IMG/VR virus record: IMGVR_UViG_3300030116_005614
Span: 1-27,311 of that record
DNA from: a virus
Strand: one strand, 5' to 3'
Length of the DNA: 27,311 nucleotides
Shown here: piece by piece, positions 4,371 to 27,311 of the stretch
How positions within the stretch are numbered: the first letter of the stretch is position 1
Layout: every line of letters starts with the position of its first letter
The notes under the pieces: model-generated
The model's input: the letters and a program-made list of their open reading frames with translations, nothing else
What the model was told of the DNA's origin: nothing
The model's database searches: none
Program-made: the position numbers and the translations under genes

Positions 4371-5588
4371 ATGGCATCATCATATTCAGATCTTGGCCTA
4401 GAACTAATGGCAACTGGTGAAAACGCCGGTACTTGGGGTGATAAAACAAACGCAAACTTAAATCTTATTGAACAATTAACTGGTGGATATTTAGAAGTAT
4501 CTATCGCAGGTGGTGCTCAAACTACAGCATTAGATATCGATAATGGAGCTCTTACAGGTAAAGCTCAAAACAGAGTAATAAAATTAACAGGTAGTATATC
4601 TGGAAACCAAATCGTAACTTTTCCAGTAAATACGGAAAACTTTTATTTTATAGATAACTCTACGACTGGTTCTTATACAGTACAATTAAAAGCAGCTTCA
4701 GGTTCTGGAGCAACTGTTACTCTTGCAACTGATGATAAAAGAACTCATATAATTTATTTAGATGGTGTTGCAACAAACACTGGAGTTTTTGATACAGGCT
4801 TAGGAGAAGGAGATGTAACTCTTACAGGAACACAAACTTTAACAAACAAAACTTTAACTTCACCTAAAATTGGGACAAAAATTGATGACACAAATGGAAA
4901 TGAATTAATTAATCTTACTGCAACAAGTTCAGCAGTTAATGAATTTACTATAGCTAATGCAGCAACTGGAGATGGTCCAATTTTATCATCAACAGGTGAA
5001 ACAAATGTTGATATAAATATTAATCCAAAAGGTTCTGGTGTTTTAAAATCAGGATCAGCTGCTGTTAAAATTGCAGGTAAAGAATCTATATGGGTTCCTG
5101 CACTTGCTATGTACCCTAATTCAACAAGTGGTTGTGCAGATTTAGCACAAACAGAATTATCAAATGGACCTGAAATTAAAACATTAGATTTTGACAAAGA
5201 CTCAGATGAGTTTGCACAATTCGCTGTTGCATTTCCTAAATCATGGAATGAAGGCACAGTAACTTTTCAAGCATTTTTTACAGCTGACACAACAAACACA
5301 GGAACAACAGCCTGGGGGTTATCAGGTGTAGCAATTGCAGATGACGATTCAATAAACACAGCTTTTGGAACACAAGTTGTTGCAACAGCAAAAGCCATGA
5401 GTGGTACAGCAAACGATTTAGCAGTAGCAAATGAAAGTGGAGCAGTAACAATTGCAGGTTCACCGAGCACTGACGAACAAGTGTTCTTTCAAATCTCAAG
5501 AGATGTATCAGCAGACTCTTTGACAGCTGATGCAAAATTATTAGGAATTAAATTATTCTTCACTACTGACGCTGCTAACGACGCATAA
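4371..5588 (+). CDS. Tail fibre-like protein
   Basis: This 405-aa protein opens with YSDLGLELMATGENAGTWGD, then KTNANLNLIEQL, a frequent N-terminus of marine phage tail fibre or fibre-base proteins. The middle holds the TLTGTQTLTNKTLTSPKIG motif (about residues 150-168), which recurs in many phage fibres, and GETNVDININPKGSG. The C-terminal 170 residues look like a separate beta domain with no motif I recognise and could be the receptor-contacting part. The start has AGGAG 10 bases upstream (4356-4360). The next gene encodes the poly-glycine adhesin-like protein, consistent with a host-recognition module. Confidence 0.6.
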   Translation: MASSYSDLGLELMATGENAGTWGDKTNANLNLIEQLTGGYLEVSIAGGAQTTALDIDNGALTGKAQNRVIKLTGSISGNQIVTFPVNTENFYFIDNSTTGSYTVQLKAASGSGATVTLATDDKRTHIIYLDGVATNTGVFDTGLGEGDVTLTGTQTLTNKTLTSPKIGTKIDDTNGNELINLTATSSAVNEFTIANAATGDGPILSSTGETNVDININPKGSGVLKSGSAAVKIAGKESIWVPALAMYPNSTSGCADLAQTELSNGPEIKTLDFDKDSDEFAQFAVAFPKSWNEGTVTFQAFFTADTTNTGTTAWGLSGVAIADDDSINTAFGTQVVATAKAMSGTANDLAVANESGAVTIAGSPSTDEQVFFQISRDVSADSLTADAKLLGIKLFFTTDAANDA

Positions 5589-5600
5589 TAGGAGGAATAT

Positions 5601-6485
5601 ATGAGTTCATTCGGATACACGATCTTAGGTTTCGGAGGCGGATCTGTCGCAAAAAAATTAGAGTTTGATTATTTAATTGTTGCTGGCGGAGGCGGCGGCG
5701 GTTTTGACGACGGAGGCGGCGGAGGAGCTGGCGGTTTAAGAAATTCTTTTCCTGGAGGAACTAAATTAGAAGTATCTGCAGGATCAACAATTACAATTGG
5801 CGGAGGCGGAGGCCCTCAAGTAAACGCTTCACCAGGAGCAGATGTAAGAGATGGAGCTAAAGGTGGTGGTTCAAGTATTGGTGGAACTTTTAATTCAACT
5901 GGTGGCGGAGGCGGAGGCCCCCCTAACGTACAAGGAGCAGCCGGAGGATCTGGTGGCGGTGGAGCTTTAAACGCAAACGGCGGAGCTGGAAACGAAGGTT
6001 CTTTTAATCCATCTGAAGGAAATCCTGGCGGTAACGGCGGAGGAAATAACTCTGGCGGTGGCGGCGGAGGAGCTGGTCAAGCTGGAATTAATGGAAATAG
6101 TGATCAATATGGAGGACCTGGTGGTAATGGAGTAACAAACAATATTAGTGGAAGTTCTGTAGTCTACGCTGGAGGCGCAGGCGGAGGAGCTAACAATCCA
6201 GGTAGTGGACCAAACGTTTCTGGTGGAAACGGTGGTGGTGGAAACGGCGGTTTTGGACCGAACACTCCTAATGCTGGAACCAATGGACGAGGCGGCGGAG
6301 GCGGCGGAGGCCCTGGCGGAGGAGCTAACAGAAACGGTGCAGTTGGAGGAAACGGTGTAGTTATTTTAAAATCACCTACTTCAGGCGGTACAATTAATGT
6401 TAATGGATCTGGAAACCAAGCACAAGCACAACCTGATGGTTCAACTATTTGTACATTTAACGTAACAGGAACAGTGGTATTCTAA
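5601..6485 (+). CDS. Glycine-rich adhesin-like tail protein
   Basis: This 294-aa protein begins with a short non-repetitive part, then YLIVAGGGGGG (about residues 24-34), and runs to about residue 255 as Gly runs broken by Asn, Pro and Ala, ending GGNGVVILKSPTSGG plus a short beta tail. The YLIVAGGGGGG start and VVILK end match the glycine-rich domain of phage adhesins. In the known tail-tip adhesin Gp38 of phage S16, such runs pack as polyglycine-II helices and bind receptors. The ribosome binding site is strong (AGGAGG 5590-5595, 5 bases before ATG). Its GGC/GGA codons make this the most GC-rich stretch of the window: 38 of 60 bases at 6301-6360. A receptor-binding role is inferred from family and position. 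Confidence 0.65.
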   Translation: MSSFGYTILGFGGGSVAKKLEFDYLIVAGGGGGGFDDGGGGGAGGLRNSFPGGTKLEVSAGSTITIGGGGGPQVNASPGADVRDGAKGGGSSIGGTFNSTGGGGGGPPNVQGAAGGSGGGGALNANGGAGNEGSFNPSEGNPGGNGGGNNSGGGGGGAGQAGINGNSDQYGGPGGNGVTNNISGSSVVYAGGAGGGANNPGSGPNVSGGNGGGGNGGFGPNTPNAGTNGRGGGGGGGPGGGANRNGAVGGNGVVILKSPTSGGTINVNGSGNQAQAQPDGSTICTFNVTGTVVF

Positions 6486-6486
6486 C

Positions 6487-6948
6487 ATGTCTCAACGTGC
6501 AGGTAAATTATTACCAAAACAACATCCTTTTGAAGTAGGACAAGAAGTTCAATCAGTAGAAGTTATTATAGCTGTGGGTGATGATGTTACAAACGAAAAC
6601 ATTCAAGAAAAAGTTGCATCTGTAACAGATGGAAATTGGAAAATATTAACAAACGATGTTTGTTTTGGTTTTTGGTGGGATGGTTCAAAATTTACACCAC
6701 CTCAACCTCATGCTTCATGGTCTTTAAATTCAGAAGGAACTCAATGGGAAGCGCCAGTTGCTAAACCTGCAAATCCTACTTTTACAGTCCAACATACAGA
6801 TGAAAACGGTGAGTCATACGACACAACTGTGGATACTTATTTTATGACTTGGAATGAAACTGATCAAAGATGGGAAGGTTATAACCGACAAGATAATAAA
6901 AACTATTACTGGGACACAGCTAATTCTAGCTGGACTTTAATATCTTAA
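6487..6948 (+). CDS. Small tail-associated protein
   Basis: This 153-aa protein contains a central FGFWWDGSKFTPPQPHASW block followed by LNSEGTQWEAPVAKP, and a C-terminal half with repeated W-x(n)-W spacing (TWNETDQRWEGYN, YYWDTANSSWTLIS). The D-G-x-F-x-P-P-Q-P ... W motif is common in short proteins beside tail fibre genes of marine phages. It starts one base after the stop of the adhesin gene. A role as fibre partner or assembly factor is plausible but inferred. Confidence 0.5.
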   Translation: MSQRAGKLLPKQHPFEVGQEVQSVEVIIAVGDDVTNENIQEKVASVTDGNWKILTNDVCFGFWWDGSKFTPPQPHASWSLNSEGTQWEAPVAKPANPTFTVQHTDENGESYDTTVDTYFMTWNETDQRWEGYNRQDNKNYYWDTANSSWTLIS

Positions 6949-6979: not shown

Positions 6980-7609
6980 ATGTTGCATTTTGAAAATCTA
7001 TATTGGTTTTTTCCATCAGCTATATGCACTGATGATATAAAAAGAATTATTAAACTTGGTAAAAAACAAAATAAAAGAATTGGTCGAATAGGAACTTTTC
7101 CTGCAAATAAATTTAAACGATTAAACAAAAAACAAAATAAAATTCTTAAAGAAACAAGAGATTCTCACGTTTCATTTATAGATGAAAGATGGCTATATGA
7201 TTTAATACAACCTTATTTTTTATCAGCTAATAAATCTGCTGGTTGGAATTTTGATATTAATTGGGTTGAACAAGTGCAATTCGCTCAATACACAAAAGAC
7301 CAACACTATGATTGGCATTGTGATTCTGGTGTTGAATTGAATGATGATGTTGCTTCACAAGGTCATGGAAAAATAAGAAAACTATCTATTGTAATATCTT
7401 TAAGTGATCCTAAAGACTATGAAGGAGGTGATTTTGAATTTCAATTTAGATCTTTAAAAGATCCTACTATAACTAAAATTGCTTCAGAACTAAAACCTAT
7501 GGGAAGTGTGCTTGTATTTCCCTCATACATTTGGCATAGAGTAAAACCAATTACAAAAGGATTACGATATTCTTTAGTAACTTGGGTGAGAGGTCACCCT
7601 TTTAGATAA
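6980..7609 (+). CDS. 2OG-Fe(II) oxygenase, PKHD/prolyl-hydroxylase-like (array gene 1)
   Basis: This 209-aa protein carries a complete oxygenase signature in its C-terminal half: QHYDWHCD with Fe ligands H113 and D115, GGDFEFQF (149-156), GSVLVFPSYIWHRV with the distal His H186, and GLRYSLVTW with R196, the residue expected to hold 2-oxoglutarate. The layout and length fit PKHD-type hydroxylases and phage relatives. Known members couple decarboxylation of 2-oxoglutarate to hydroxylation of a protein or small molecule; the substrate here is unknown. It has its own ribosome binding site (AAAGGA 5 bases upstream) and a candidate promoter, so it is probably the head of the array. The next gene starts directly after its stop. 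Confidence 0.8.
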   Translation: MLHFENLYWFFPSAICTDDIKRIIKLGKKQNKRIGRIGTFPANKFKRLNKKQNKILKETRDSHVSFIDERWLYDLIQPYFLSANKSAGWNFDINWVEQVQFAQYTKDQHYDWHCDSGVELNDDVASQGHGKIRKLSIVISLSDPKDYEGGDFEFQFRSLKDPTITKIASELKPMGSVLVFPSYIWHRVKPITKGLRYSLVTWVRGHPFR

Positions 7610-8125
7610 ATGTATAATAATTGGAATCACAACAAATACCTTTATATAAAAAATTTTATATCGAAAGAAGATTTAAATGTTATTTTAAAAGACATAGAAT
7701 ATTATTTTACAAGTAATTTACATAAAGAAGAAAAAGGAAGTGTTATAAAATCTGGTCAACAAACAAAACCAAACTTACATATTATAGGTAAAAGTAAACC
7801 TTGGAAAAATTACTATAAAAAATTAAGTGAACTTGCAAGCGCTTTAGGAAAAGAAAATTTAAGAAAAAGTTGGGCTCTTAGAATAAAAGAAAAAGCACCG
7901 GGTGTGCCTCATCAACACAAAGACAATAGTATAACTTGTGTTTTTTATGTTCAAAATCCTGATATTTCATTAGGCACACATTTACAAGAAAATAATACTG
8001 ACATCATTATACCAGGACACGAAAATTCTTTACTTATATTTGATGGCACAATTGTTCATGATGCAATTTTTCCTACACACAAATTAAAAAAACCTAGGTA
8101 TAGTTTAATTACTGATTATGAATAA
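7610..8125 (+). CDS. 2OG-Fe(II) oxygenase-like protein (array gene 2)
   Basis: This 171-aa protein has the double-stranded beta-helix signature in its C-terminal half: GVPHQHKDNS (Fe ligands H103 and D105), GTHLQE, HENSLLIFDGTIVHDA (distal H150) and KKPRYSLITDY (R163). H-x-D to distal His is 47 residues, shorter than in array gene 1, so it belongs to a different, compact subfamily. The N-terminal 90 residues begin with a strand-rich YLYIKNFIS block common to this superfamily. ATG follows the previous stop with no gap and no clear ribosome binding site of its own. Substrate unknown. Confidence 0.7.
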   Translation: MYNNWNHNKYLYIKNFISKEDLNVILKDIEYYFTSNLHKEEKGSVIKSGQQTKPNLHIIGKSKPWKNYYKKLSELASALGKENLRKSWALRIKEKAPGVPHQHKDNSITCVFYVQNPDISLGTHLQENNTDIIIPGHENSLLIFDGTIVHDAIFPTHKLKKPRYSLITDYE

Positions 8126-8774
8126 CTTTAAAAAAAATAAATACGTAATTTTAAAAGAAGTAGTTGACTTAAAGATTGCAAATTTTTTAACTGAATATTT
8201 GTTATTAAAAAAAGAAGTTGCTAATACTTTAACTAAATTAAATTACATACCTGAATATCTTAAAGATATGGTTGGTGTTTTTAACGATCCACAAGTTCCT
8301 AATGCGTATTCTATATACAGTGATATTGCAAATGAGATTTTATTAAAAAAAATAAAACCTGTTATGGAAAAAAACACTGGTTTAAAACTTGTTGAAACTT
8401 ATTCTTATGCAAGAATTTATAAAAAAGGAAACATACTTCATAGACATAAAGACAGGCCTTCTTGTGAAATATCGACAACAATAAATCTTGGTGGTGATCC
8501 TTGGCCAATATATCTAGAACCAGATCCTAAAAAAGGTAGACTTGTTGGAAATAAATATATATCAGATAATACTAAAGGTATTAAAGTAGATTTAAAACAA
8601 GGAGATATGTTAGTTTACAAAGGTTGTGAATTAGAACATTGGAGAGAACCTTTTACAAAAAACTACTGCGTTCAAGTTTTTTTACATTACAATCGTGCAA
8701 CTAAAAAAGCTATAAAATTTGATGGTAGACCACACCTAGGTTTACCTTGTGATATTAAAAATGAAACCATTTAA
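8118..8774 (+). CDS. 2OG-Fe(II) oxygenase-like protein (array gene 3)
   Basis: This 218-aa protein has YSYARIYKKGNILHRHKDRP (residues 95-114), with Fe ligands H110 and D112, followed by GGDPWPIYLEPD and a late QGDMLVYKGCELEHWRE block with distal His H174. The usual Arg about 10 residues after the distal His is not obvious; K181 or R176 may take its place. The pattern L-H-R-H-x-D-R-P ... Y-x-G-x-E-x-x-H-W-R-E is one I associate with phage oxygenases of unknown target. Its start overlaps the previous gene by 8 bases. Confidence 0.7.
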   Translation: MNNFKKNKYVILKEVVDLKIANFLTEYLLLKKEVANTLTKLNYIPEYLKDMVGVFNDPQVPNAYSIYSDIANEILLKKIKPVMEKNTGLKLVETYSYARIYKKGNILHRHKDRPSCEISTTINLGGDPWPIYLEPDPKKGRLVGNKYISDNTKGIKVDLKQGDMLVYKGCELEHWREPFTKNYCVQVFLHYNRATKKAIKFDGRPHLGLPCDIKNETI

Positions 8775-9378
8775 ACATAATAATAAAAATAATTTTTTAG
8801 CAGGATGGTACATTGACAAAAAAATTTGTGCCGACATGATTAAATATTTTAATAATAACAACGAAACTAATGCTGGAATAAAACACCAAGGAAGTGTTGG
8901 TGGACCAGATGGAGGATTTACAGTAGACAAAACAGTAAAAAATTCTACCGATCTTCCTATTAATAATTTAACTCAGGATAAAGTGCCCATAAGATATCTA
9001 AGTGAATTAACCAAAGTTGTTGAAAAATATAAAAAAAAATATCCTTGGTCTGATGAAAACCATGCTCGTTGGGGAATGAGAGAAAGTTTTAATATTCAAA
9101 GATATCCAAAAAACGGTGGTTTTTTTAAACCTCACTTTGAAAGAACAGGGAGTATTCATTTTGAACACAGGCATTTAGTTTTTATGACCTATCTTAATAC
9201 AATTAAAACAGGTGGCCAGACAGAATTTATACATCAAAAACTTAAAATTAAACCTGAGGTAGGTCTGACTGTAATATGGCCTGCTGATTGGACATTTGCT
9301 CATAGAGGTATACGAGCACCAAAAGAAATTAAATACATCGCTACAGGATGGTATGGATATTTACATGACATCAAATAA
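8761..9378 (+). CDS. 2OG-Fe(II) oxygenase, prolyl-4-hydroxylase-like with H-x-E (array gene 4)
   Basis: This 205-aa protein, starting at ATG 8761 (a GTG at 8749 is also in frame), has the classic order NIQRYPKNGG, FFKPHFERTG (H125-x-E127), HLVFMTYLN, GGQTEFIHQ, LKIKPEVGLTVIWPADW, AHRGI (distal H181) and EIKYIATGWYGY (K191). The Y-L-N, G-G-x-T-x-F and P-x-x-G sequence is that of the prolyl-4-hydroxylase branch, where Lys rather than Arg often binds 2-oxoglutarate. The Fe ligand acid is Glu, not the usual Asp. With ATG 8761 it overlaps gene 3 by 14 bases. Confidence 0.75.
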   Translation: MKPFKHNNKNNFLAGWYIDKKICADMIKYFNNNNETNAGIKHQGSVGGPDGGFTVDKTVKNSTDLPINNLTQDKVPIRYLSELTKVVEKYKKKYPWSDENHARWGMRESFNIQRYPKNGGFFKPHFERTGSIHFEHRHLVFMTYLNTIKTGGQTEFIHQKLKIKPEVGLTVIWPADWTFAHRGIRAPKEIKYIATGWYGYLHDIK

Positions 9379-9889
9379 AGATTTTATATTGGAAAAAAAT
9401 AATTTTATTACAAAACAAGAATGCAATATATTAATTAAAGATTTAAAAGATAAGACAAGTAAAGCTGAAAAAAAAGAATATGGTTATGAGTGTTTTGATT
9501 TAGAAGGCACAGTTATTTTTAGTCAAGTGCAGCAAAAAGTTTTTCCTTTGTGGAATGAATACATAAAAAAATTTCCTGAAATTAATTTGACTACAAACAA
9601 ATGGTCGTTAACAAATTTAAGATTTAAAAAATTTAAACCAGGCAAGTATTTTGAAAAATGGCATTCAGAACATAGTTATAACCATGCAACTAGAATTTTA
9701 AATATACAAATATATCTAACCTCACACGACTGTGGAACTGAATTTTATAATGGAAAGGTTATTAAATCAGAACAAGGAAAGGTTGTCATATTTCCGTCTT
9801 ATTTTACTCATACACACAAAGGACAAAAATGTCCTAATAAAAAAACAAGATACTTAATTACAGGATATGTTAATTTTTTAGATTTATGA
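9365..9889 (+). CDS. 2OG-Fe(II) oxygenase with H-x-E, paralogue of array gene 8 (array gene 5)
   Basis: The most likely start is ATG 9365, giving 174 aa and a 14-base overlap with gene 4, the same as the gene 3/gene 4 overlap; an upstream TTG at 9296 would lengthen it inside gene 4. The core reads LRFKKFKPGK, WHSEH (H100-x-E102), QIYL, CGTEF, GKVVIFPSYFTHTHKGQ (distal H151) and KKTRYLITGY (R162). By hand count 58 of 93 core residues are identical to array gene 8, so the two arose by duplication. The N-terminal 75 residues differ much more. Substrate unknown. Confidence 0.75.
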   Translation: MTSNKDFILEKNNFITKQECNILIKDLKDKTSKAEKKEYGYECFDLEGTVIFSQVQQKVFPLWNEYIKKFPEINLTTNKWSLTNLRFKKFKPGKYFEKWHSEHSYNHATRILNIQIYLTSHDCGTEFYNGKVIKSEQGKVVIFPSYFTHTHKGQKCPNKKTRYLITGYVNFLDL

Positions 9890-10416
9890 AAGTAGAAAAA
9901 CTAATTAAAGCAAATATGCTTCGAGAATATTATTTTATCAAAGGCAATTTGTCTATTGATACAAAATATTTTATAAAAAAAATTGAAGAAGGTATTAATT
10001 TAAATACAAACAAAAATTATACAACTAATATTGTAGGAAATATGACAGCTTTTAAATTTTTTCTTAATGATAAAAAATTTATTAAAATGATGATGCCTAT
10101 TTTTGATCTTATAGATAGTAATCCTTCTGAAGAAGTTAACTCTTGGACGTTATCTGAAGCATGGGGTTTTAAAGAAAAATTTTCAGATTATACTAGACAA
10201 CATGCTCACTTACCTTGTTTTCTTTCAGGTGCAATTCAATTATCTAATCATAGTCAAATATTAGAATTTCCGCAAATAAAAGAAACTTTAGAATGTAAGC
10301 CTGGAAACTTCGCTGTGTTTTCAAGTTTTTTAAAACATAAAAATAAAAGAAACACTACCGATAAAGAACGATACGGTCTTAGTTTTAATATAATAAATAG
10401 TGCAACTTATGGTTAA
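9886..10416 (+). CDS. 2OG-Fe(II) oxygenase superfamily-like protein with H-x-H (array gene 6)
   Basis: This 176-aa protein resembles the phage oxygenase group that has a His-rich motif before SG: SWTLSEAWGF, RQHAHLPCFLSGAIQLS (H106, H108), ECKPGNFAVFSSFLKHK (distal H151), KERYGLSFN (R162). The overall order matches the 2OG_FeII_Oxy_5-type family (H-x-H ... SG-x-x-x-L ... P-x-x-x-x-x-F-x-S-x-x-x-H ... R). The acidic ligand of H-x-D is not visible at the expected place, so activity is less certain than in its neighbours. The start overlaps the stop of gene 5 by 4 bases (ATGA). The DNA is very AT-rich: 11 of 60 bases are G or C at 10021-10080. Confidence 0.6.
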   Translation: MKVEKLIKANMLREYYFIKGNLSIDTKYFIKKIEEGINLNTNKNYTTNIVGNMTAFKFFLNDKKFIKMMMPIFDLIDSNPSEEVNSWTLSEAWGFKEKFSDYTRQHAHLPCFLSGAIQLSNHSQILEFPQIKETLECKPGNFAVFSSFLKHKNKRNTTDKERYGLSFNIINSATYG

Positions 10417-10963
10417 GAAAAAAAGATACGAAGAATTGTTTAATGGTTCTATTCACATAGAACGAAATTTTCTTTCTAAAAATGTTTATGAACAAATGTT
10501 TGAAGACATACAAAAATTAAAGTATGACGCCTGTCACCAACCATATAGTCAATACTTTGGTAATCGTTTTCAAGGTTATCCTGTCTACGAAGCTATATTT
10601 AATAAATATGATTCTATTATATTTAAGGAAATAGAAAAACTTATTGAATGTAAAATAACAGATGCACACAGTAAAGTTAGAAAAGTTATTGCTTCAGAAG
10701 TATCTAAATCTAAATATAATGTACCCCATGGACCAGTGCATATAGATAGTCAAACTAATTTAGCAGCCATACTTCCTTTTTATCATAGTGTTTCTGGCGG
10801 AACTGCTTTTTTTGAATATCAATCTGATAAATATCCAGACATATCAATAGGTGCTTATCCCAATAGAATAATAATTTTTAACGCTAAAAGATATCATGCT
10901 CCTTGCACTGATTTAACTTATGAAGTATCATATAAATATAATATGTTTTTTAATATAAAGTAA
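10409..10963 (+). CDS. 2OG-Fe(II) oxygenase-like protein, DUF6445-like (array gene 7)
   Basis: Starting at ATG 10409 (a GTG at 10400 is also in frame), this 184-aa protein has HGPVHIDSQTNLAAILPFYH (107-126) with Fe ligands H111 and D113, SGGTAFFEYQ, then YPNRIIIFNAKRYHAP with distal His H163. V-H-x-D-S, G-G-T-A-F-F and N-R-x-I-x-F-x-A-x-x-x-H-x-P is the pattern of the DUF6445 type of oxygenase-fold proteins. The C-terminal FFNIK ends the fold. It overlaps gene 6 by 8 bases and is followed by gene 8 with a TAATG overlap. Confidence 0.65.
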   Translation: MVKKKRYEELFNGSIHIERNFLSKNVYEQMFEDIQKLKYDACHQPYSQYFGNRFQGYPVYEAIFNKYDSIIFKEIEKLIECKITDAHSKVRKVIASEVSKSKYNVPHGPVHIDSQTNLAAILPFYHSVSGGTAFFEYQSDKYPDISIGAYPNRIIIFNAKRYHAPCTDLTYEVSYKYNMFFNIK

Positions 10964-11478
10964 TGGACAGAAATTTTATAGCTATAAAGAAAGAGTTTAC
11001 TACAAAAGCTAAATGTAAATCTTTAATTAAAACTTTAGATAAAAATTTAGAAATTGATAAATCTAATCCAGATTTAAATTATAGTTACAAAGATATAAAA
11101 ATTAAAAGTGTTCAAAAATTTATTGTAGATAAAGCAGTTAGTTTTGTTAAATTATATACCAGTGTTTATCCAGAATTAAACATGACTAGTGACAGATGGG
11201 CTATGACTGAATTAAGATTTAAAAAATTTAAACCGGGTAAATCTTTCAACAAATGGCATTCTGAACATTGTAATAAATATCCAAGCAGAGTGCTTGCTTT
11301 TCAATTATATTTAAGTGACCATAACTGTGGCACTCAATTTATGAATGGAGAATATGTAGAGTCTGACATTGGAAAAGCTATTTTATTTCCAGCTTATTTT
11401 ACCCACACCCATAGAGGCCAAGCTTGTCCTCAAAAGAAAACTAGATATTTAATTACTGGATATTTTAATTTTATTTAG
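10963..11478 (+). CDS. 2OG-Fe(II) oxygenase with H-x-E, paralogue of array gene 5 (array gene 8)
   Basis: This 171-aa protein has LRFKKFKPGK, WHSEH (H99-x-E101), QLYL, CGTQF, GKAILFPAYFTHTHRGQ (distal H150) and KKTRYLITGY (R161). It is the duplicate of array gene 5; at DNA level a 23-bp stretch is identical (11212-11234 and 9617-9639). Two unrelated oxygenase-like genes lie between the copies. It is the last gene of the array; its final 8 bases overlap the end of a minus-strand gene. Confidence 0.75.
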   Translation: MDRNFIAIKKEFTTKAKCKSLIKTLDKNLEIDKSNPDLNYSYKDIKIKSVQKFIVDKAVSFVKLYTSVYPELNMTSDRWAMTELRFKKFKPGKSFNKWHSEHCNKYPSRVLAFQLYLSDHNCGTQFMNGEYVESDIGKAILFPAYFTHTHRGQACPQKKTRYLITGYFNFI

Positions 11479-11683
11479 TTAACTTAGCTATTATATCTTT
11501 CAGCTCTGTAATTTTGTTTACAAACTCGTTGTTTAGTTTTCCTAAAGCTATTATTCTAGTTTCTAAATTAATTATATGTTTTTTGTAATCAGCATTAAGG
11601 TCAACTTCTGACATTTTAACTGATCTTTCCATCTCCAATTTTTCTTCTAAATCTTTAATTATCTCGTCTTTTACGTCTTTCAT
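11471..11683 (-). CDS. Small coiled-coil protein, convergent to the oxygenase array
   Basis: This 70-aa protein is highly charged with heptad-like leucine/isoleucine spacing (IIKDLEEKLEMERS, IINLETRIIALGKL, NKITELKDIIAKL), so a coiled coil is likely over nearly its full length. I do not recognise a family. It is the only minus-strand gene inside the late block and its 3' end overlaps array gene 8 by 8 bases. A good promoter lies just upstream (11692-11721) with only 8 bases between -10 box and ATG, which argues that the gene is real. Its transcript would face the late rightward transcript head-on. Confidence 0.55.
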   Translation of the reverse strand: MKDVKDEIIKDLEEKLEMERSVKMSEVDLNADYKKHIINLETRIIALGKLNNEFVNKITELKDIIAKLTK

Positions 11684-11691
11684 ATCTAATG

Positions 11692-11721
11692 ATTATATAT
11701 TGATAAACGTCTAAAAGTCAA
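11692..11721 (-). promoter_or_regulatory. Sigma-70-type promoter for the minus-strand coiled-coil gene
   Basis: Read on the minus strand, TTGACT (11721-11716) and TATAAT (11697-11692, perfect) are 18 bp apart. Transcription would begin about 6-7 bases later, within a few bases of the ATG at 11683, so the mRNA would be leaderless or nearly so. This is one of the best promoter matches in the window. Confidence 0.55.
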
Positions 11722-11773
11722 GTAAACTGCCCTCTACTCAAACTACAAAAAATATGTTAAGGGGCTATTACAT

Positions 11774-13954
11774 ATGTTACAAAAATTAGGATTTCAACCA
11801 GGATTTAACAAACAAGTCACAGAAACCGGTGCGGAAGGACAATGGTTTGATGGTGATAATGTTCGTTTTAGATATGGTACACCTGAAAAAATAGGGGGTT
11901 GGACCCAATTAGGTCAAGATAAATTGACAGGTGCTGCAAGAGCAATTCATCATTGGGACGATAATGCTGGTATTAAATATGCAGCAATAGGAACAAATAG
12001 AATTTTATATGTATACTCTGGAGGAATTTATTACGACATCCATCCTATCAGAGCCACTTTAACAGGAGCTAATTTTACTAGTACAGCTTCTTCTAAAACT
12101 GTTACAGTCACATGCACCGGGACACATGGATTAAACGAAGATGACATTGTTATGTTTGATTCTGTTAGTGGTGTTACTGCAGTGGGATCAACTTACACTG
12201 ATGCTACTTTTGAAGATCAAAAGTTTATGGTAACTTCGGTTCCTACAACATCTACTTTTACTATTACAATGGATGCTCAAGAATCAGGAACTCCTTTGTC
12301 AACTAGTGGGTCTGCTTCAATTCTTTGTTATTACACTGTCGGTCCGGCACAACAACTTGGAGGTTTTGGTTGGGGTACAGGTCTTTGGGCTGGTACAGCA
12401 ATTGGTCCAGCAACTACGACACTAGCTTCTACTATTAATGATACAGTAACCGATATTCCTTTAACCAGCTCCGCAGCTTTTCCATCTACTGGAGAAATTA
12501 GAATTGGATCAGAAGACATAAGTTTTACAGCTAACAACACAACAACAAATATATTAAGCGGAGGTGCAAGAGAAATTAATGGCACAACCAAAGCAGGACA
12601 TAGCGCCGGTGCAACTGTTACAAACATATCTGATTATGTTGCATGGGGTGAAGCGTCGTCTTCTGACTTTACTATTGATCCAGGAATGTGGGTATTAGAT
12701 AACTATGGAACAAAATTAATTGCACTTATATATAATGGTCAATGTTTTGAGTGGGATGCGGCAGGAGCCGGAGCAACATCTACAAGAGCAACTTTATTAG
12801 CTAACGCTCCAACAGCATCACGTCATGTATTAGTATCTACACCAGATCGTCACTTAGTATTTTTTGGAACCGAAACAACAGTAGGCAGCACCAGTACTCA
12901 AGACGATATGTTTATACGATTCTCTTCTCAAGAAAGCATTGATCAAACAGATTCTTATACTGTTAAAGCAAACAACACAGCAGGCACACAAAGACTAGCA
13001 GATGGATCTAAAATTATGGGAGCTATCAAAGGTAGAGATGCTATCTATGTATGGACTGACACTGCATTGTTTTTAATGAAATTTGTAGGACTACCATTTA
13101 CCTTTTCTTTTGAACAAGTGGGAACTAACTGCGGATTATTAGGGAAAAATGCATGCATTGAAGTAGATGGTAAGGCGTATTGGATGTCAGAAAACGGATT
13201 TTTTACTTACGATGGTCAATTAAAATCTATGCCCTGTCTTGTTGAAGATTTTGTTTATGACGATATAAACGTTGTATCTAGAGACTTAATTAATGCAGGA
13301 TTAAATAATCTTTTTGGAGAAATAAGTTGGTATTACGGTACAGTTAATTCTAATCAAATAAACAGAAATGTAACTTATAATTATTTAGACTCATCACCTA
13401 AACGTCCTATATGGACAACAGGAACTTTACCTCGAACAGCTTGGCAGGATTCTGCAGTATTTGAAAAACCTCATGCTACATTTTATGATCCATCAGATAA
13501 CGCGTCGACAGATTGCACTGGAAACACAGATGGTAGTACTATATACTATCAACAGGAAACAGGGACCGATCAAATTAATGCCGGCGGTGTAACGACTGCT
13601 GTTATTGGTTCTATTACATCTGGAGATTTTGATATTACACAAAGAAGAAGTAATACAGGACAGACTGTAGGAATGCCTGACTTAAGAGGGGATGGAGAAT
13701 TTATAATGAGAATAAGCAGATTTATACCAGACTTTATTTCACAAACAGGAAATACACAAGTTAGTTTTGTAACAAGAACCTATCCAAATAGTTCAGCTAC
13801 AACTACAAATTTTACAATAGATTCTAATACAACAAAAAAAGATACGAGATTAAGGGCTAGATCAATTGCATTAAAAGTTGCCAATACAACAACAAGTGAA
13901 GACTGGAAACTTGGAACTTTTAGATTAGACATACATCCAGGAGGTAGAAGATAA
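11774..13954 (+). CDS. Tail nozzle-like / packaged-DNA-stabilising protein
   Basis: This 726-aa protein starts with KLGFQPGFNKQVTETGAEGQ, WFDGDNVRFRYGTPEKIGGW and YAAIGTNRILYVY, the usual start of the large beta-propeller-like proteins that form the tail nozzle or DNA-stabilising plug in podoviruses (compare T7 gp12 and P22 gp10 in role). It has an insertion at residues 216-283 with the beta module shared with two neck proteins (FPSTGEIRIGSEDISF). Later blocks (RHVLVSTPDRHLVFFG, GRDAIYVWTDTALFLMKF, YWMSENGFFTYDGQL) are propeller-like blades. The ribosome binding site is AAGGGG (11759-11764), 9 bases before ATG. It is separated from the other neck genes by the oxygenase array. Confidence 0.6.
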   Translation: MLQKLGFQPGFNKQVTETGAEGQWFDGDNVRFRYGTPEKIGGWTQLGQDKLTGAARAIHHWDDNAGIKYAAIGTNRILYVYSGGIYYDIHPIRATLTGANFTSTASSKTVTVTCTGTHGLNEDDIVMFDSVSGVTAVGSTYTDATFEDQKFMVTSVPTTSTFTITMDAQESGTPLSTSGSASILCYYTVGPAQQLGGFGWGTGLWAGTAIGPATTTLASTINDTVTDIPLTSSAAFPSTGEIRIGSEDISFTANNTTTNILSGGAREINGTTKAGHSAGATVTNISDYVAWGEASSSDFTIDPGMWVLDNYGTKLIALIYNGQCFEWDAAGAGATSTRATLLANAPTASRHVLVSTPDRHLVFFGTETTVGSTSTQDDMFIRFSSQESIDQTDSYTVKANNTAGTQRLADGSKIMGAIKGRDAIYVWTDTALFLMKFVGLPFTFSFEQVGTNCGLLGKNACIEVDGKAYWMSENGFFTYDGQLKSMPCLVEDFVYDDINVVSRDLINAGLNNLFGEISWYYGTVNSNQINRNVTYNYLDSSPKRPIWTTGTLPRTAWQDSAVFEKPHATFYDPSDNASTDCTGNTDGSTIYYQQETGTDQINAGGVTTAVIGSITSGDFDITQRRSNTGQTVGMPDLRGDGEFIMRISRFIPDFISQTGNTQVSFVTRTYPNSSATTTNFTIDSNTTKKDTRLRARSIALKVANTTTSEDWKLGTFRLDIHPGGRR

Positions 13955-25348: not shown

Positions 25349-25858
25349 TTAAAACCAATTAATGTTTATAAGTCCTCTTAATAAATTATCTGTATGAGTA
25401 GAACCTGTGTGTTCTAGATTAGTTGGAAAAGTAACCATTCTATTTGCAACACAGTTTATTTTTTTACCCGTTTTAAAAAAAGTTGGACCATTAGTTGTAT
25501 GCAAATAAAAAATACTTGTTTTTCCAACCGGTTCGTTTTTTGGTGTATCGATATCTACATGATATGCATACAATCTTTTTTTAGTTGTTTTAAATGTACA
25601 ATTAGCCTTAACTCTTTGTAAAGCTCTAACATTTAATTTATTTAAAATTGGGTTTAAAACATCAAAAAAATCACTATTTGGTTTGTGGGGTTGATAAAAA
25701 AGATGTGTAAGTTGCACCTCATTATCTCCTTTTATTACCTTATGATCTTGCAAATACCACGGAAATACGTTTTTAACATCTGCATCAAAAATAGTGTTTT
25801 TGATACTGTTAAAAATATCCTTATGTAAAAAATTGTCTTTAATAATAATTTTATTCAT
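25349..25858 (-). CDS. 2OG-Fe(II) oxygenase-like protein (ninth copy, paired with helicase)
   Basis: Starting at ATG 25858, this protein is 169 aa; ATG 25873 and TTG 25903 are also in frame but lie at or before the predicted transcription start. Signature: RLYAYHVDID (H100-x-D102), KTSIFYLHTTNGPTFF, CVANRMVTFPTNLEHTGST (distal H150) and LLRGLININWF (R161). This compact layout is close to other phage oxygenases. It is not an obvious duplicate of any of the eight array genes. Its promoter overlaps that of the rightward genes, and it is followed 2 bases later by the helicase gene. Confidence 0.7.
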   Translation of the reverse strand: MNKIIIKDNFLHKDIFNSIKNTIFDADVKNVFPWYLQDHKVIKGDNEVQLTHLFYQPHKPNSDFFDVLNPILNKLNVRALQRVKANCTFKTTKKRLYAYHVDIDTPKNEPVGKTSIFYLHTTNGPTFFKTGKKINCVANRMVTFPTNLEHTGSTHTDNLLRGLININWF

Positions 25859-25866
25859 CTTTCTAG

Positions 25867-25894
25867 TTGACATATATATAGAACATCCTATATT
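25867..25894 (+). promoter_or_regulatory. Rightward promoter for the genes from 25903
   Basis: TTGACA (25867-25872, perfect) is followed after 16 bp by TATATT (25889-25894, 5 of 6). Only 8 bases separate the -10 box from ATG 25903, so the mRNA would have almost no leader. The same 8-base distance is seen for the coiled-coil gene at 11471-11683. Confidence 0.5.
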
Positions 25895-25903
25895 GTTTGT
25901 CAA
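25875..25903 (-). promoter_or_regulatory. Leftward promoter for oxygenase-helicase unit
   Basis: On the minus strand, TTGACA (25903-25898, perfect) is followed after 17 bp by TATATA (25880-25875, 4 of 6). Transcription would start near 25868, about 10 bases before ATG 25858, leaving an AGAAAG directly before the start. It occupies nearly the same bases as the rightward promoter at 25867-25894. Confidence 0.5.
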
Positions 25904-26262
25904 TGTCAGAAAGAAAAATAGTTTACGTAATACAAGAATTGCCTGGAACTAAAGCCGGTACTCCTAAAATAAATATTATGAGTGCAAAAGAATATGGTGA
26001 TTTTGTTTTTTTACTTCCAGAATTTTCGCAAATAATATTTTCTCCTGGACCATTGGTTTTTAAATTAAGAAAACTTTTAAAAGACTATACTCCAAAAGAT
26101 TATTTATTATTAACTGGCGATCCTGCAATTATTGGTATAGCGTGTTCTATAGTTTCTGAATTAACAAATGGAAAATTTAATTTGTTAAAATGGGATAGAC
26201 AAGAAAAAATGTATTATCCTTTAAAAATAAACTTACATGAGAAAGGAAAAATAAATGAGTAA
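25903..26262 (+). CDS. Small protein of unknown function
   Basis: The best start is ATG 25903 (119 aa); TTG 25897 is also in frame. The sequence reads SERKIVYVIQELPGTKAGTP, then KINIMSAKEYGDFVFLLPEF, a LLLTGDPAIIGIACSIVSEL segment and NLLKWDRQEKMYYPLKI. It looks like a compact alpha/beta protein without a recognised catalytic motif. It is the first gene of the rightward early-like unit, and its end overlaps the next start by 8 bases. Confidence 0.6.
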   Translation: MSERKIVYVIQELPGTKAGTPKINIMSAKEYGDFVFLLPEFSQIIFSPGPLVFKLRKLLKDYTPKDYLLLTGDPAIIGIACSIVSELTNGKFNLLKWDRQEKMYYPLKINLHEKGKINE

Positions 26263-26809
26263 TATAAACTTTGAAGCAGATCAAAGAGAAGATTTAGATG
26301 GTGCAAATAATGCCAATAAATTATCTGATCAAGTAGTTAAACTACAAGAACTAGAAGCAGAACTTTTAGTTAAAGAACAAGAATATAAAGAGATAAAAAG
26401 AAAAGTAGAATTAGTATCATCAGAGGTAATACCTACAATGATGCAAGAAATGAACATCTCTACATTAAAATTAGCAGACGGGACTTCAGTAGAAGTTAAA
26501 CCTGTCTATGGTGCTTCTATACCTGCTGATAAAAAGGAAGAAGCATATAAATGGCTTCGTGAGAACGGACTAGGTGACCTTATTAAAAATGAGGTAACCG
26601 TTGCTTTTGGACGTTCCGAAGATAACAAGGCACAGCAATATGCTGTCCTTGCGCAAGGTCAAGGGTATGAACCTATCCAGAAATTAAAGGTTGAACCAAT
26701 GACACTTAAAGCATTAGTTAGAGAGCGTGTTGAGGCTGGACTTGATATGCCCTCTGACTTATTTAATTTGTTTACAAGCAACAGAACAAAAATAACAAGG
26801 AGTAAATAA
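26255..26809 (+). CDS. Protein with coiled-coil N-terminus, unknown function
   Basis: This 184-aa protein has a coiled coil at about residues 25-55 (VVKLQELEAELLVKEQEYKE), then LKLADGTSVEVKPVYGASIP, a helical KWLRENGLGDLIKNEVTVAF segment and a C-terminal block KVEPMTLKALVRERVEAGLD followed by MPSDLFNLFTSNRTKI. I have seen this C-terminal layout (x-P-M-T-L-K-A-x-V-R-E-x-V-E-A-G) in phage genes near replication genes, but no function is known to me. AAAGGA lies 8 bases before the ATG. Confidence 0.6.
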   Translation: MSNINFEADQREDLDGANNANKLSDQVVKLQELEAELLVKEQEYKEIKRKVELVSSEVIPTMMQEMNISTLKLADGTSVEVKPVYGASIPADKKEEAYKWLRENGLGDLIKNEVTVAFGRSEDNKAQQYAVLAQGQGYEPIQKLKVEPMTLKALVRERVEAGLDMPSDLFNLFTSNRTKITRSK

Positions 26810-26811
26810 CC

Positions 26812-27311
26812 ATGAACCAAGTAGCAGAGAAAAAGTCTGCAGGACTTCCTTCAAATATTTTTGAAGAAGATGCAGCAAAAGGTTTGGGTAAAATAGGTCA
26901 AGAAGATCTAGCCCTTCCTTTTCTTAAAATCCTAGGACAACTTTCACCTGAAGTTAATAAACGTGATGGTAAGTATGTTGAGGGTGCAGAACCAGGAATG
27001 ATATTCAATTCTGTTTCTGGAGATTTATACGACGGAGTAAAAGGCATAGATGTAATTCCATGTTTTTACAAACTCGAATACATCGAATGGAAAGATAGAG
27101 GAGAAGGACCAGGTGCACCTGTTGCAATTTATGATTCTTCATCTGATATCATGTCTAAAACAAAAGCAGATGCAAGTTACAAAGATAGATTACCTAATGG
27201 TAATTATATTGAAAAGACTGCATCACATTTTGTAATTATAACTGGAGACAGTCCATCGACTGCGTTGATCTCTATGAAATCTACTCAATTAAAAATTAGT
27301 AGAAAATGGAA
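26812..27311 (+). CDS. Protein of unknown function, 3' truncated by the window edge
   Basis: The frame starts at ATG 26812 with AAGGAG (26797-26802) upstream and is open for 166 codons to the window end. It reads LPSNIFEEDAAKGLGKIGQE, DLALPFLKILGQLSPEVNKR, DGKYVEGAEPGMIFNS and GVKGIDVIPCFYKLEYIEWK. It resembles a conserved phage protein found beside replication or single-strand DNA-binding genes, but I cannot assign a reaction. The gene probably continues the unit that begins at 25903. Confidence 0.55.
   Translation, partial: MNQVAEKKSAGLPSNIFEEDAAKGLGKIGQEDLALPFLKILGQLSPEVNKRDGKYVEGAEPGMIFNSVSGDLYDGVKGIDVIPCFYKLEYIEWKDRGEGPGAPVAIYDSSSDIMSKTKADASYKDRLPNGNYIEKTASHFVIITGDSPSTALISMKSTQLKISRKW

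Follow-up and report, generated by a model that had tools for sequence, protein, structure and literature searches.

The window analysed here is the whole of IMG/VR virus record IMGVR_UViG_3300030116_005614, a 27-kb stretch (27,311 nucleotides) in which a run of tail genes precedes genes for an endolysin and a helicase. Its tail region carries an array of eight adjoining genes (ox1 to ox8, positions 6980-11478) whose products resemble 2-oxoglutarate (2OG)-Fe(II) oxygenases. Comparison with related contigs revealed that the fibre tip and the array are swapped as one block, with the flanking nozzle gene staying behind. The array is both linked to the fibre and conserved. We tentatively propose, as a reading that falls somewhat short of probable, that it is a translationally coupled hydroxylase set whose targets would be side chains in the receptor-binding fibre of the phage itself. 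The genes concerned are as follows.

4371..5588, + strand: fibre-like protein (phrog_31104 over the N-terminal 184 amino acids)
5601..6485, + strand: Gly-rich putative receptor-binding fibre/adhesin (PF21722 Gly_rich_2, 1.1e-11)
6487..6948, + strand: small fibre-associated protein of 153 amino acids between adhesin and array (phrog_7759, 4.8e-6)
6980..7609, + strand: ox1, PKHD/prolyl-hydroxylase-like 2OG-Fe(II) oxygenase (PF13640, phrog_61)
7610..8125, + strand: ox2, 2OG-FeII_Oxy_5-like, HxH type (PF13759, weak; phrog_274, phrog_81)
8118..8774, + strand: ox3, phrog_2954 family, labelled 'ferrochelatase', predicted 2OG-oxygenase fold (AlphaFold2 model)
8761..9378, + strand: ox4, 2OG-Fe(II) oxygenase (PF13640, phrog_61)
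9365..9889, + strand: ox5, 2OG-Fe(II) oxygenase, paralogue of ox8 (PF13640)
9886..10416, + strand: ox6, 2OG-FeII_Oxy_5, HxH type (PF13759, phrog_81)
10409..10963, + strand: ox7, divergent DUF6445/phrog_274-like protein, probable 2OG fold (phrog_274, conserved ligands)
10963..11478, + strand: ox8, 2OG-Fe(II) oxygenase, paralogue of ox5 (PF13640, phrog_61)
11471..11683, - strand: antisense open reading frame (ORF) of 70 amino acids in the gap before the nozzle gene, conserved in relatives
11774..13954, + strand: nozzle/stabilisation-type tail protein, 3' border of the array (phrog_3287, 1.7e-91)

Eighty related contigs were collected with the nozzle gene as anchor, and a non-redundant set of 28 that carry three or more array genes and show the upstream side was used for the comparisons across contigs. 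DNA identity between the window and contig L009 was 86-98% from ~4900 to ~11700, as opposed to 56-70% within the nozzle gene and 56-76% on the upstream side; the jump near 4900, from 56-64% to 86-92%, falls inside the fibre-like gene. Identity to contigs L012 and L013 was about 80-94% up to ~5600 and 84-97% from 11700, and 55-80% between. The breakpoints of the exchanged block lie near 4900-5600 and 11500-11800, its 5' edge being within or at the end of the fibre-like gene. Synonymous divergence from L009 was 0.07-0.22 in the ox genes and 0.61 in the nozzle gene; from L012 it was 0.51-0.59 and 0.14, respectively. Likewise, the nozzle protein was 58-59% identical in L009 and L010 and 97% identical in L012, and the 153-residue protein upstream of the array was 86-92% identical in L009 and L010 and 35% identical in L012. 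In a partial Mantel comparison across the 28 contigs, the similarity of arrays followed that of the fibres (r 0.32, p 0.0015) and not that of the nozzle proteins (r -0.02, p 0.55). As the nozzle gene is just 300 bases from the array, mere proximity does not account for this contrast.

The product of the gene at 5601-6485, two places upstream of the array, consists of 37% Gly and 11% Asn. A Gly-rich gene was found at most 3 kb upstream in 12 of 15 non-redundant contig arrays, where random stretches of the same contigs led us to expect 4.8, and likewise in 6 of 12 phage records (3.3 expected). Gly_rich_2 proteins also lie near arrays in S-SM1, S-TIM4, Bellamy and HTVC008M. Most arrays adjoin a PF21722 Gly-rich fibre gene, across podoviruses, a pelagimyophage and cyanomyoviruses. 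Contigs L026 and L053 are exceptions, in which fibres with WNGTNWTE-type repeats and then a sulfotransferase take the place of the Gly-rich gene; with this other fibre type, the array is made up differently and gains a sulfotransferase. Sulfotransferase-type genes were seen shortly upstream of 2OG arrays in L026 (6148-6942), L053 (5668-6459), L069, L075 and L076, and those of L026, L053 and L076 come after fibres of WNGTNWTEVNDLNTAR-like repeats. Tryptophan halogenase genes occur near 2OG genes in HTVC008M (L117, 4290-5684, - strand) and Synechococcus phage Sf-FP1 (L119, 6556-8112) and are a possible further modifying partner.

The architecture described in the initial annotation was reproduced in full. 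All eight frames are present at every start position claimed, the array does lie between fibre/adhesin genes and the nozzle gene, and recomputed junctions agree: ox1 and ox2 abut, and the successive overlaps are 8 (ox2/ox3), 14 (ox3/ox4), 14 (ox4/ox5), 4 (ox5/ox6), 8 (ox6/ox7) and 1 (ox7/ox8) bases. An assembly chimera was ruled out because contigs L005-L011, from several other metagenomes, carry the same array, with proteins about 70-100% identical. Recent tandem duplication of a single gene was also ruled out: ox5 and ox8 are the sole close pair (47% identity), ox4 and ox2 show weak similarity to this pair, and the other array proteins had no significant match in pairwise comparison. The ratio of nonsynonymous to synonymous substitution (dN/dS) was 0.08-0.40 across all eight genes in comparison with L009, L010 and L012; the genes are under purifying selection.

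The metal triad (HxD/E or HxH, then a distal His) was recovered in all eight proteins, and an Arg or Lys 10-13 residues past the distal His in seven, as the initial annotation had read from the translations for all or most of them. The motifs are H113xD..H186..R196 (ox1), H101xH..H150..R163 (ox2), H110xD..H174 (ox3, the exception, with C184/Q186 where the classical Arg/Lys is expected), H125xE..H181..K191 (ox4), H100xE..H149/151..R (ox5), H106xH..H151..R (ox6), H111xD..H163..K176 (ox7) and H99xE..H148/150..R (ox8). Pfam 2OG-FeII_Oxy_3 (PF13640) was matched above its cut-off by ox1 (8.6e-14), ox4 (1.9e-10) and ox5 (8.9e-7) and marginally below it by ox8 (6.7e-5), which shares the 47% identity with ox5; 2OG-FeII_Oxy_5 (PF13759) was matched above cut-off by ox6 (4.3e-6) and weakly by ox2 (1.1e-3). 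The PHROG matches were to 2OG or 2OG-like families for all eight, some oddly named ('ferrochelatase', 'DNA endonuclease V'): phrog_61 for ox1 (4.2e-38), ox4 (7.8e-39) and ox8 (1.9e-20), phrog_274 (2.8e-6) and phrog_81 (6.8e-6) for ox2, phrog_81 for ox6 (1.9e-9), phrog_2954 for ox3 (3.3e-48) and phrog_274 for ox7 (1.8e-7). In addition, ox1 matched an NCBIfam Fe2+-dependent dioxygenase model at 5.8e-17, under that model's cut-off. Among solved structures, the ox1/ox4 profile matched PKHD, prolyl and lysyl hydroxylases and the joint ox2/ox6 profile matched PDB entries 2rg4 (1.2e-15) and 3bvc; ox6 alone found no solved-structure relative by sequence search.

In Pfam, ox7 has a sub-threshold DUF6445 match alone (2.3e-3). 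Among 13 aligned sequences, H111 and D113 never vary and H163 and K176 hardly ever do, and its profile aligns to the ox2/ox6 profile with the metal ligands in register (P 1.3e-4). Its AlphaFold2 model, built from that 13-sequence alignment, is weak (predicted local distance difference test [pLDDT] score of 63) and gave no useful structural match. At least seven of the array proteins are 2OG-Fe(II)-oxygenase-like, with ox7 as a probable eighth, and Pfam or PHROG homology (ox1, ox2, ox4, ox5, ox6 and ox8) together with the ox3 model supports the claim that most or all have the corresponding double-stranded beta-helix.

Array proteins across the contigs fall into 111 clusters at 60% identity. The metal motif was present in 108 of 109 cluster representatives, compared with a mean of 42 of 109 in shuffled sequences and 14 of 158 other ORFs, a count that is supportive rather than independent as the collecting profiles partly rest on the same motif. 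Iterated profiles can drift, and membership was checked by independent Pfam and PHROG scans of 50 proteins from six other arrays; 27 matched 2OG-FeII_Oxy_3 and 25 matched 2OG-FeII_Oxy_5, backing the identity of most members. The 'DNA endonuclease V' label of phrog_274 is doubtful: 29 of the 50 proteins matched this family, many of them also 2OG-FeII_Oxy_5. Such labels fall on 2OG-FeII_Oxy_5-like proteins in L110 (8732-9220) and L090 (8313-8795), for example. In the window itself, a probable ninth 2OG-like gene lies outside the array at 25349-25903 (- strand), beside a SNF2-type helicase gene; it matches the ox2 profile (82 bits) and has a fitting motif, with no Pfam or NCBIfam match.

No Pfam family up to E 1 and no NCBIfam family was found for ox3, and a sequence search with its alignment returned no solved-structure relative. 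Its AlphaFold2 model (pLDDT 87.7) matched 595 PDB chains at E < 0.001 in Foldseek, the best being the prolyl-4-hydroxylase 4iw3 (7.3e-9). VIA Z against 2OG oxygenases was about 15-17, and the prolyl-4-hydroxylase 4j25 superposed over 161 residues at 2.8 Å. H110, D112 and H174 are invariant among 27 ox3 relatives. The model predicts that ox3 (phrog_2954) is a further prolyl-hydroxylase-like double-stranded beta-helix. We reject the ferrochelatase label for ox3, as there is no ferrochelatase domain match and the model superposes on prolyl-hydroxylase folds. About 150 marine phage records contain an ox3 relative, and the 'ferrochelatase' label there is very likely a misannotated 2OG-oxygenase fold. 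Proteins so labelled belong to phrog_2954, phrog_3531 and T4-GC 615 (e.g., L110 12117-13233 and L117 11998-12639). The published pairing of 2OG and 'ferrochelatase' genes (PMC9599517), on which a later study builds (PMC11561400), is affected: the two categories described as 'co-occurring' appear to form a single superfamily, and the re-reading alters what both papers state about auxiliary iron/haem genes and their seasonality.

In the mechanism we propose, the eight enzymes would be translated together with the tail genes and would hydroxylate side chains of the fibre before or during assembly, each enzyme taking a different residue or context. The substrate would most likely be the adjacent Gly-rich protein (5601-6485) and possibly the product of the fibre-like gene at 4371. 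An enzyme set matched to one adhesin could give it a surface chemistry beyond the twenty amino acids, or stabilise Gly-rich helices. Catalysis, the fibre as substrate, timing and benefit are what we infer here; by sequence, the closest proteins of solved structure hydroxylate proteins or peptides and are of the PKHD, prolyl 4-hydroxylase and lysyl hydroxylase types. If the enzymes are specific to their own fibre, fibre and enzymes would be expected to be inherited and exchanged as one cassette, and the sequence exchange and adjacency make the fibre tip a likely target, rather than virion or host proteins in general. A wider proposal, possible but more doubtful, is that unrelated tail types share an exchangeable cassette of fibre and hydroxylase set that remodels its own fibre post-translationally and diversifies adhesins combinatorially, sometimes joined by sulfotransferase or other partners. 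If matched enzyme sets do modify these fibres chemically, protein modification would, alongside fibre sequence, help to set host range and phage resistance among very common marine bacteria, and receptor prediction from sequence would miss it.

Several observations weigh against fibre hydroxylation. Adjacency and co-exchange could be due to physical linkage alone, and the comparison of array with nozzle similarity used contigs picked by nozzle similarity, which narrows the range of the latter. In the stretch examined, no Gly-rich gene accompanies the arrays of HTVC027P, S-T4 and S-SCSM1, and lone 2OG genes also occur elsewhere in phage genomes. Furthermore, a PDB sequence search found no solved homologue of the Gly-rich protein at 5601-6485, and ox3 lacks the classical 2OG-binding Arg/Lys after its second His. 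The enzymes may instead modify host targets such as outer-membrane proteins, surface glycans or EF-Tu-like translation factors, blocking superinfection or steering the host, and the array would then sit in the fibre block since both evolve with the host surface. A structural neighbour of ox3 is a Pseudomonas putida prolyl hydroxylase solved with EF-Tu, and glycosyltransferase, carbamoyltransferase, sulfotransferase and halogenase genes lie near arrays in relatives. These partners would fit fibre decoration and equally host surface glycans; glycosyltransferase genes are also present in host-recognition islands of pelagimyophages (PMC7029224). However, a fibre substrate accounts more directly for joint exchange with the fibre at sharp borders, and eight host-directed enzymes need not change along with the fibre. 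We consider a host target rather unlikely.

Improbable to a greater degree is a non-enzymatic role, in which the beta-helix proteins would be fibre-folding chaperones or minor virion proteins that retained an enzyme fold. Chaperones would fit co-exchange with the fibre, and two weakly matched PHROGs bear the names 'minor coat protein' and 'tail protein'; however, the metal-ligand motif is kept in nearly all clusters, with H/D/H invariant in ox3 and conserved in ox7, which a scaffold-only role would not lead one to expect. A neutral or weakly selected variable slot that gathers auxiliary 2OG genes is, if anything, marginally less probable again. Turnover is indeed very high, as seen in the 111 clusters and the array sizes of 3 to 10, but the dN/dS values of all eight genes, their tight overlaps and an array composition that tracks the fibre and not the nozzle gene speak against it. 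Auxiliary iron or haem metabolism, with 2OG oxygenases and a ferrochelatase partner, is the published reading (PMC9599517, PMC11561400); it appears very unlikely for a 'ferrochelatase' that matches no Pfam family up to E 1 and has a prolyl-hydroxylase-like model. Some phages do modify their DNA with 2OG enzymes, and some PHROG labels read 'DNA endonuclease V'. Yet hypermodification of DNA or nucleotides by TET/JBP-like oxygenases is the least probable explanation, as the families match protein-hydroxylase types (PF13640, PF13759), not TET/JBP, and the array is located in the tail block.

The window belongs to an HTVC023P-type, pelagiphage-like podovirus, and its host is presumably SAR11. Its nozzle protein is 44-46% identical to those of the nearest phages, 023Pt_psg01, HTVC027P and HTVC023P, and the gene order around it matches their maps. 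The antisense ORF at 11471-11683, a coiled coil as judged by eye, is 87-100% identical in all sister arrays and 50-57% identical in L012, L013, L101 and L102. It is kept with ox7-carrying arrays and their nearest relatives; in L103-L109 a match lies upstream, on the other strand. Three successive genes at 25897-27309 (+ strand) match the gp32, gp33 and gp34 families of phage Pam3.

The initial annotation knew of no described system with such a run; that the kind is undescribed is not supported. Eight non-orthologous 2OG families, frequently close together and with 'ferrochelatase' partners, have been published for the HTVC023P-type group (PMC9599517), and the cyanomyoviruses S-SM1 and S-RSM4 also hold nine such genes beside fibre genes. 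In the open-access papers searched, we found neither the contiguous eight-gene form, the correction of the ferrochelatase fold, the Gly-rich fibre association nor the joint exchange, and nothing on 2OG oxygenases combined with Gly-rich phage tails; the fold predicted for ox3, the link to a Gly-rich fibre and the exchange of fibre and array as one block seem to be new. In gp38 of phages S16 and PP01, receptors are bound by Gly-rich tips of the poly-glycine-II type (PMC12892980). The Gly-rich protein of the window is like gp38 in composition only and has no sequence match to solved structures. We know of no hydroxylase array for gp38.

PKHD-type enzymes, prolyl 4-hydroxylases and procollagen lysyl hydroxylases (including 6ax6) resemble the ox1, ox4 and ox3 types in profile and fold. 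Unlike them, the phage array proteins are short single domains, and ox3 lacks the usual 2OG Arg/Lys position. Among the closest known systems are the clusters of HTVC023P and 023Pt_psg01, which share with the window the phage group, the slot before the nozzle gene and several non-orthologous 2OG genes plus phrog_2954. This slot, which carries 3 to 10 2OG-like genes among the 28 contigs, holds five in 023Pt_psg01 and HTVC023P and three on the opposite strand in HTVC027P; HTVC023P and 023Pt_psg01 thus have about five array genes, whereas the window has eight abutting ones. In the published account of these clusters, the genes are nearby rather than adjacent, the partner is a ferrochelatase and no fibre link is drawn (PMC9599517). 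The nine 2OG-like genes after the fibre genes of S-SM1 and S-RSM4, partly annotated as 2OG, and the five in a row in the pelagimyophage HTVC008M are, as in the window, fibre-adjacent runs of five to nine genes that include phrog_2954 types and lie near a Gly-rich protein. They differ in belonging to an unrelated tail machine (Kyanoviridae), in having other members and in being sometimes interrupted.

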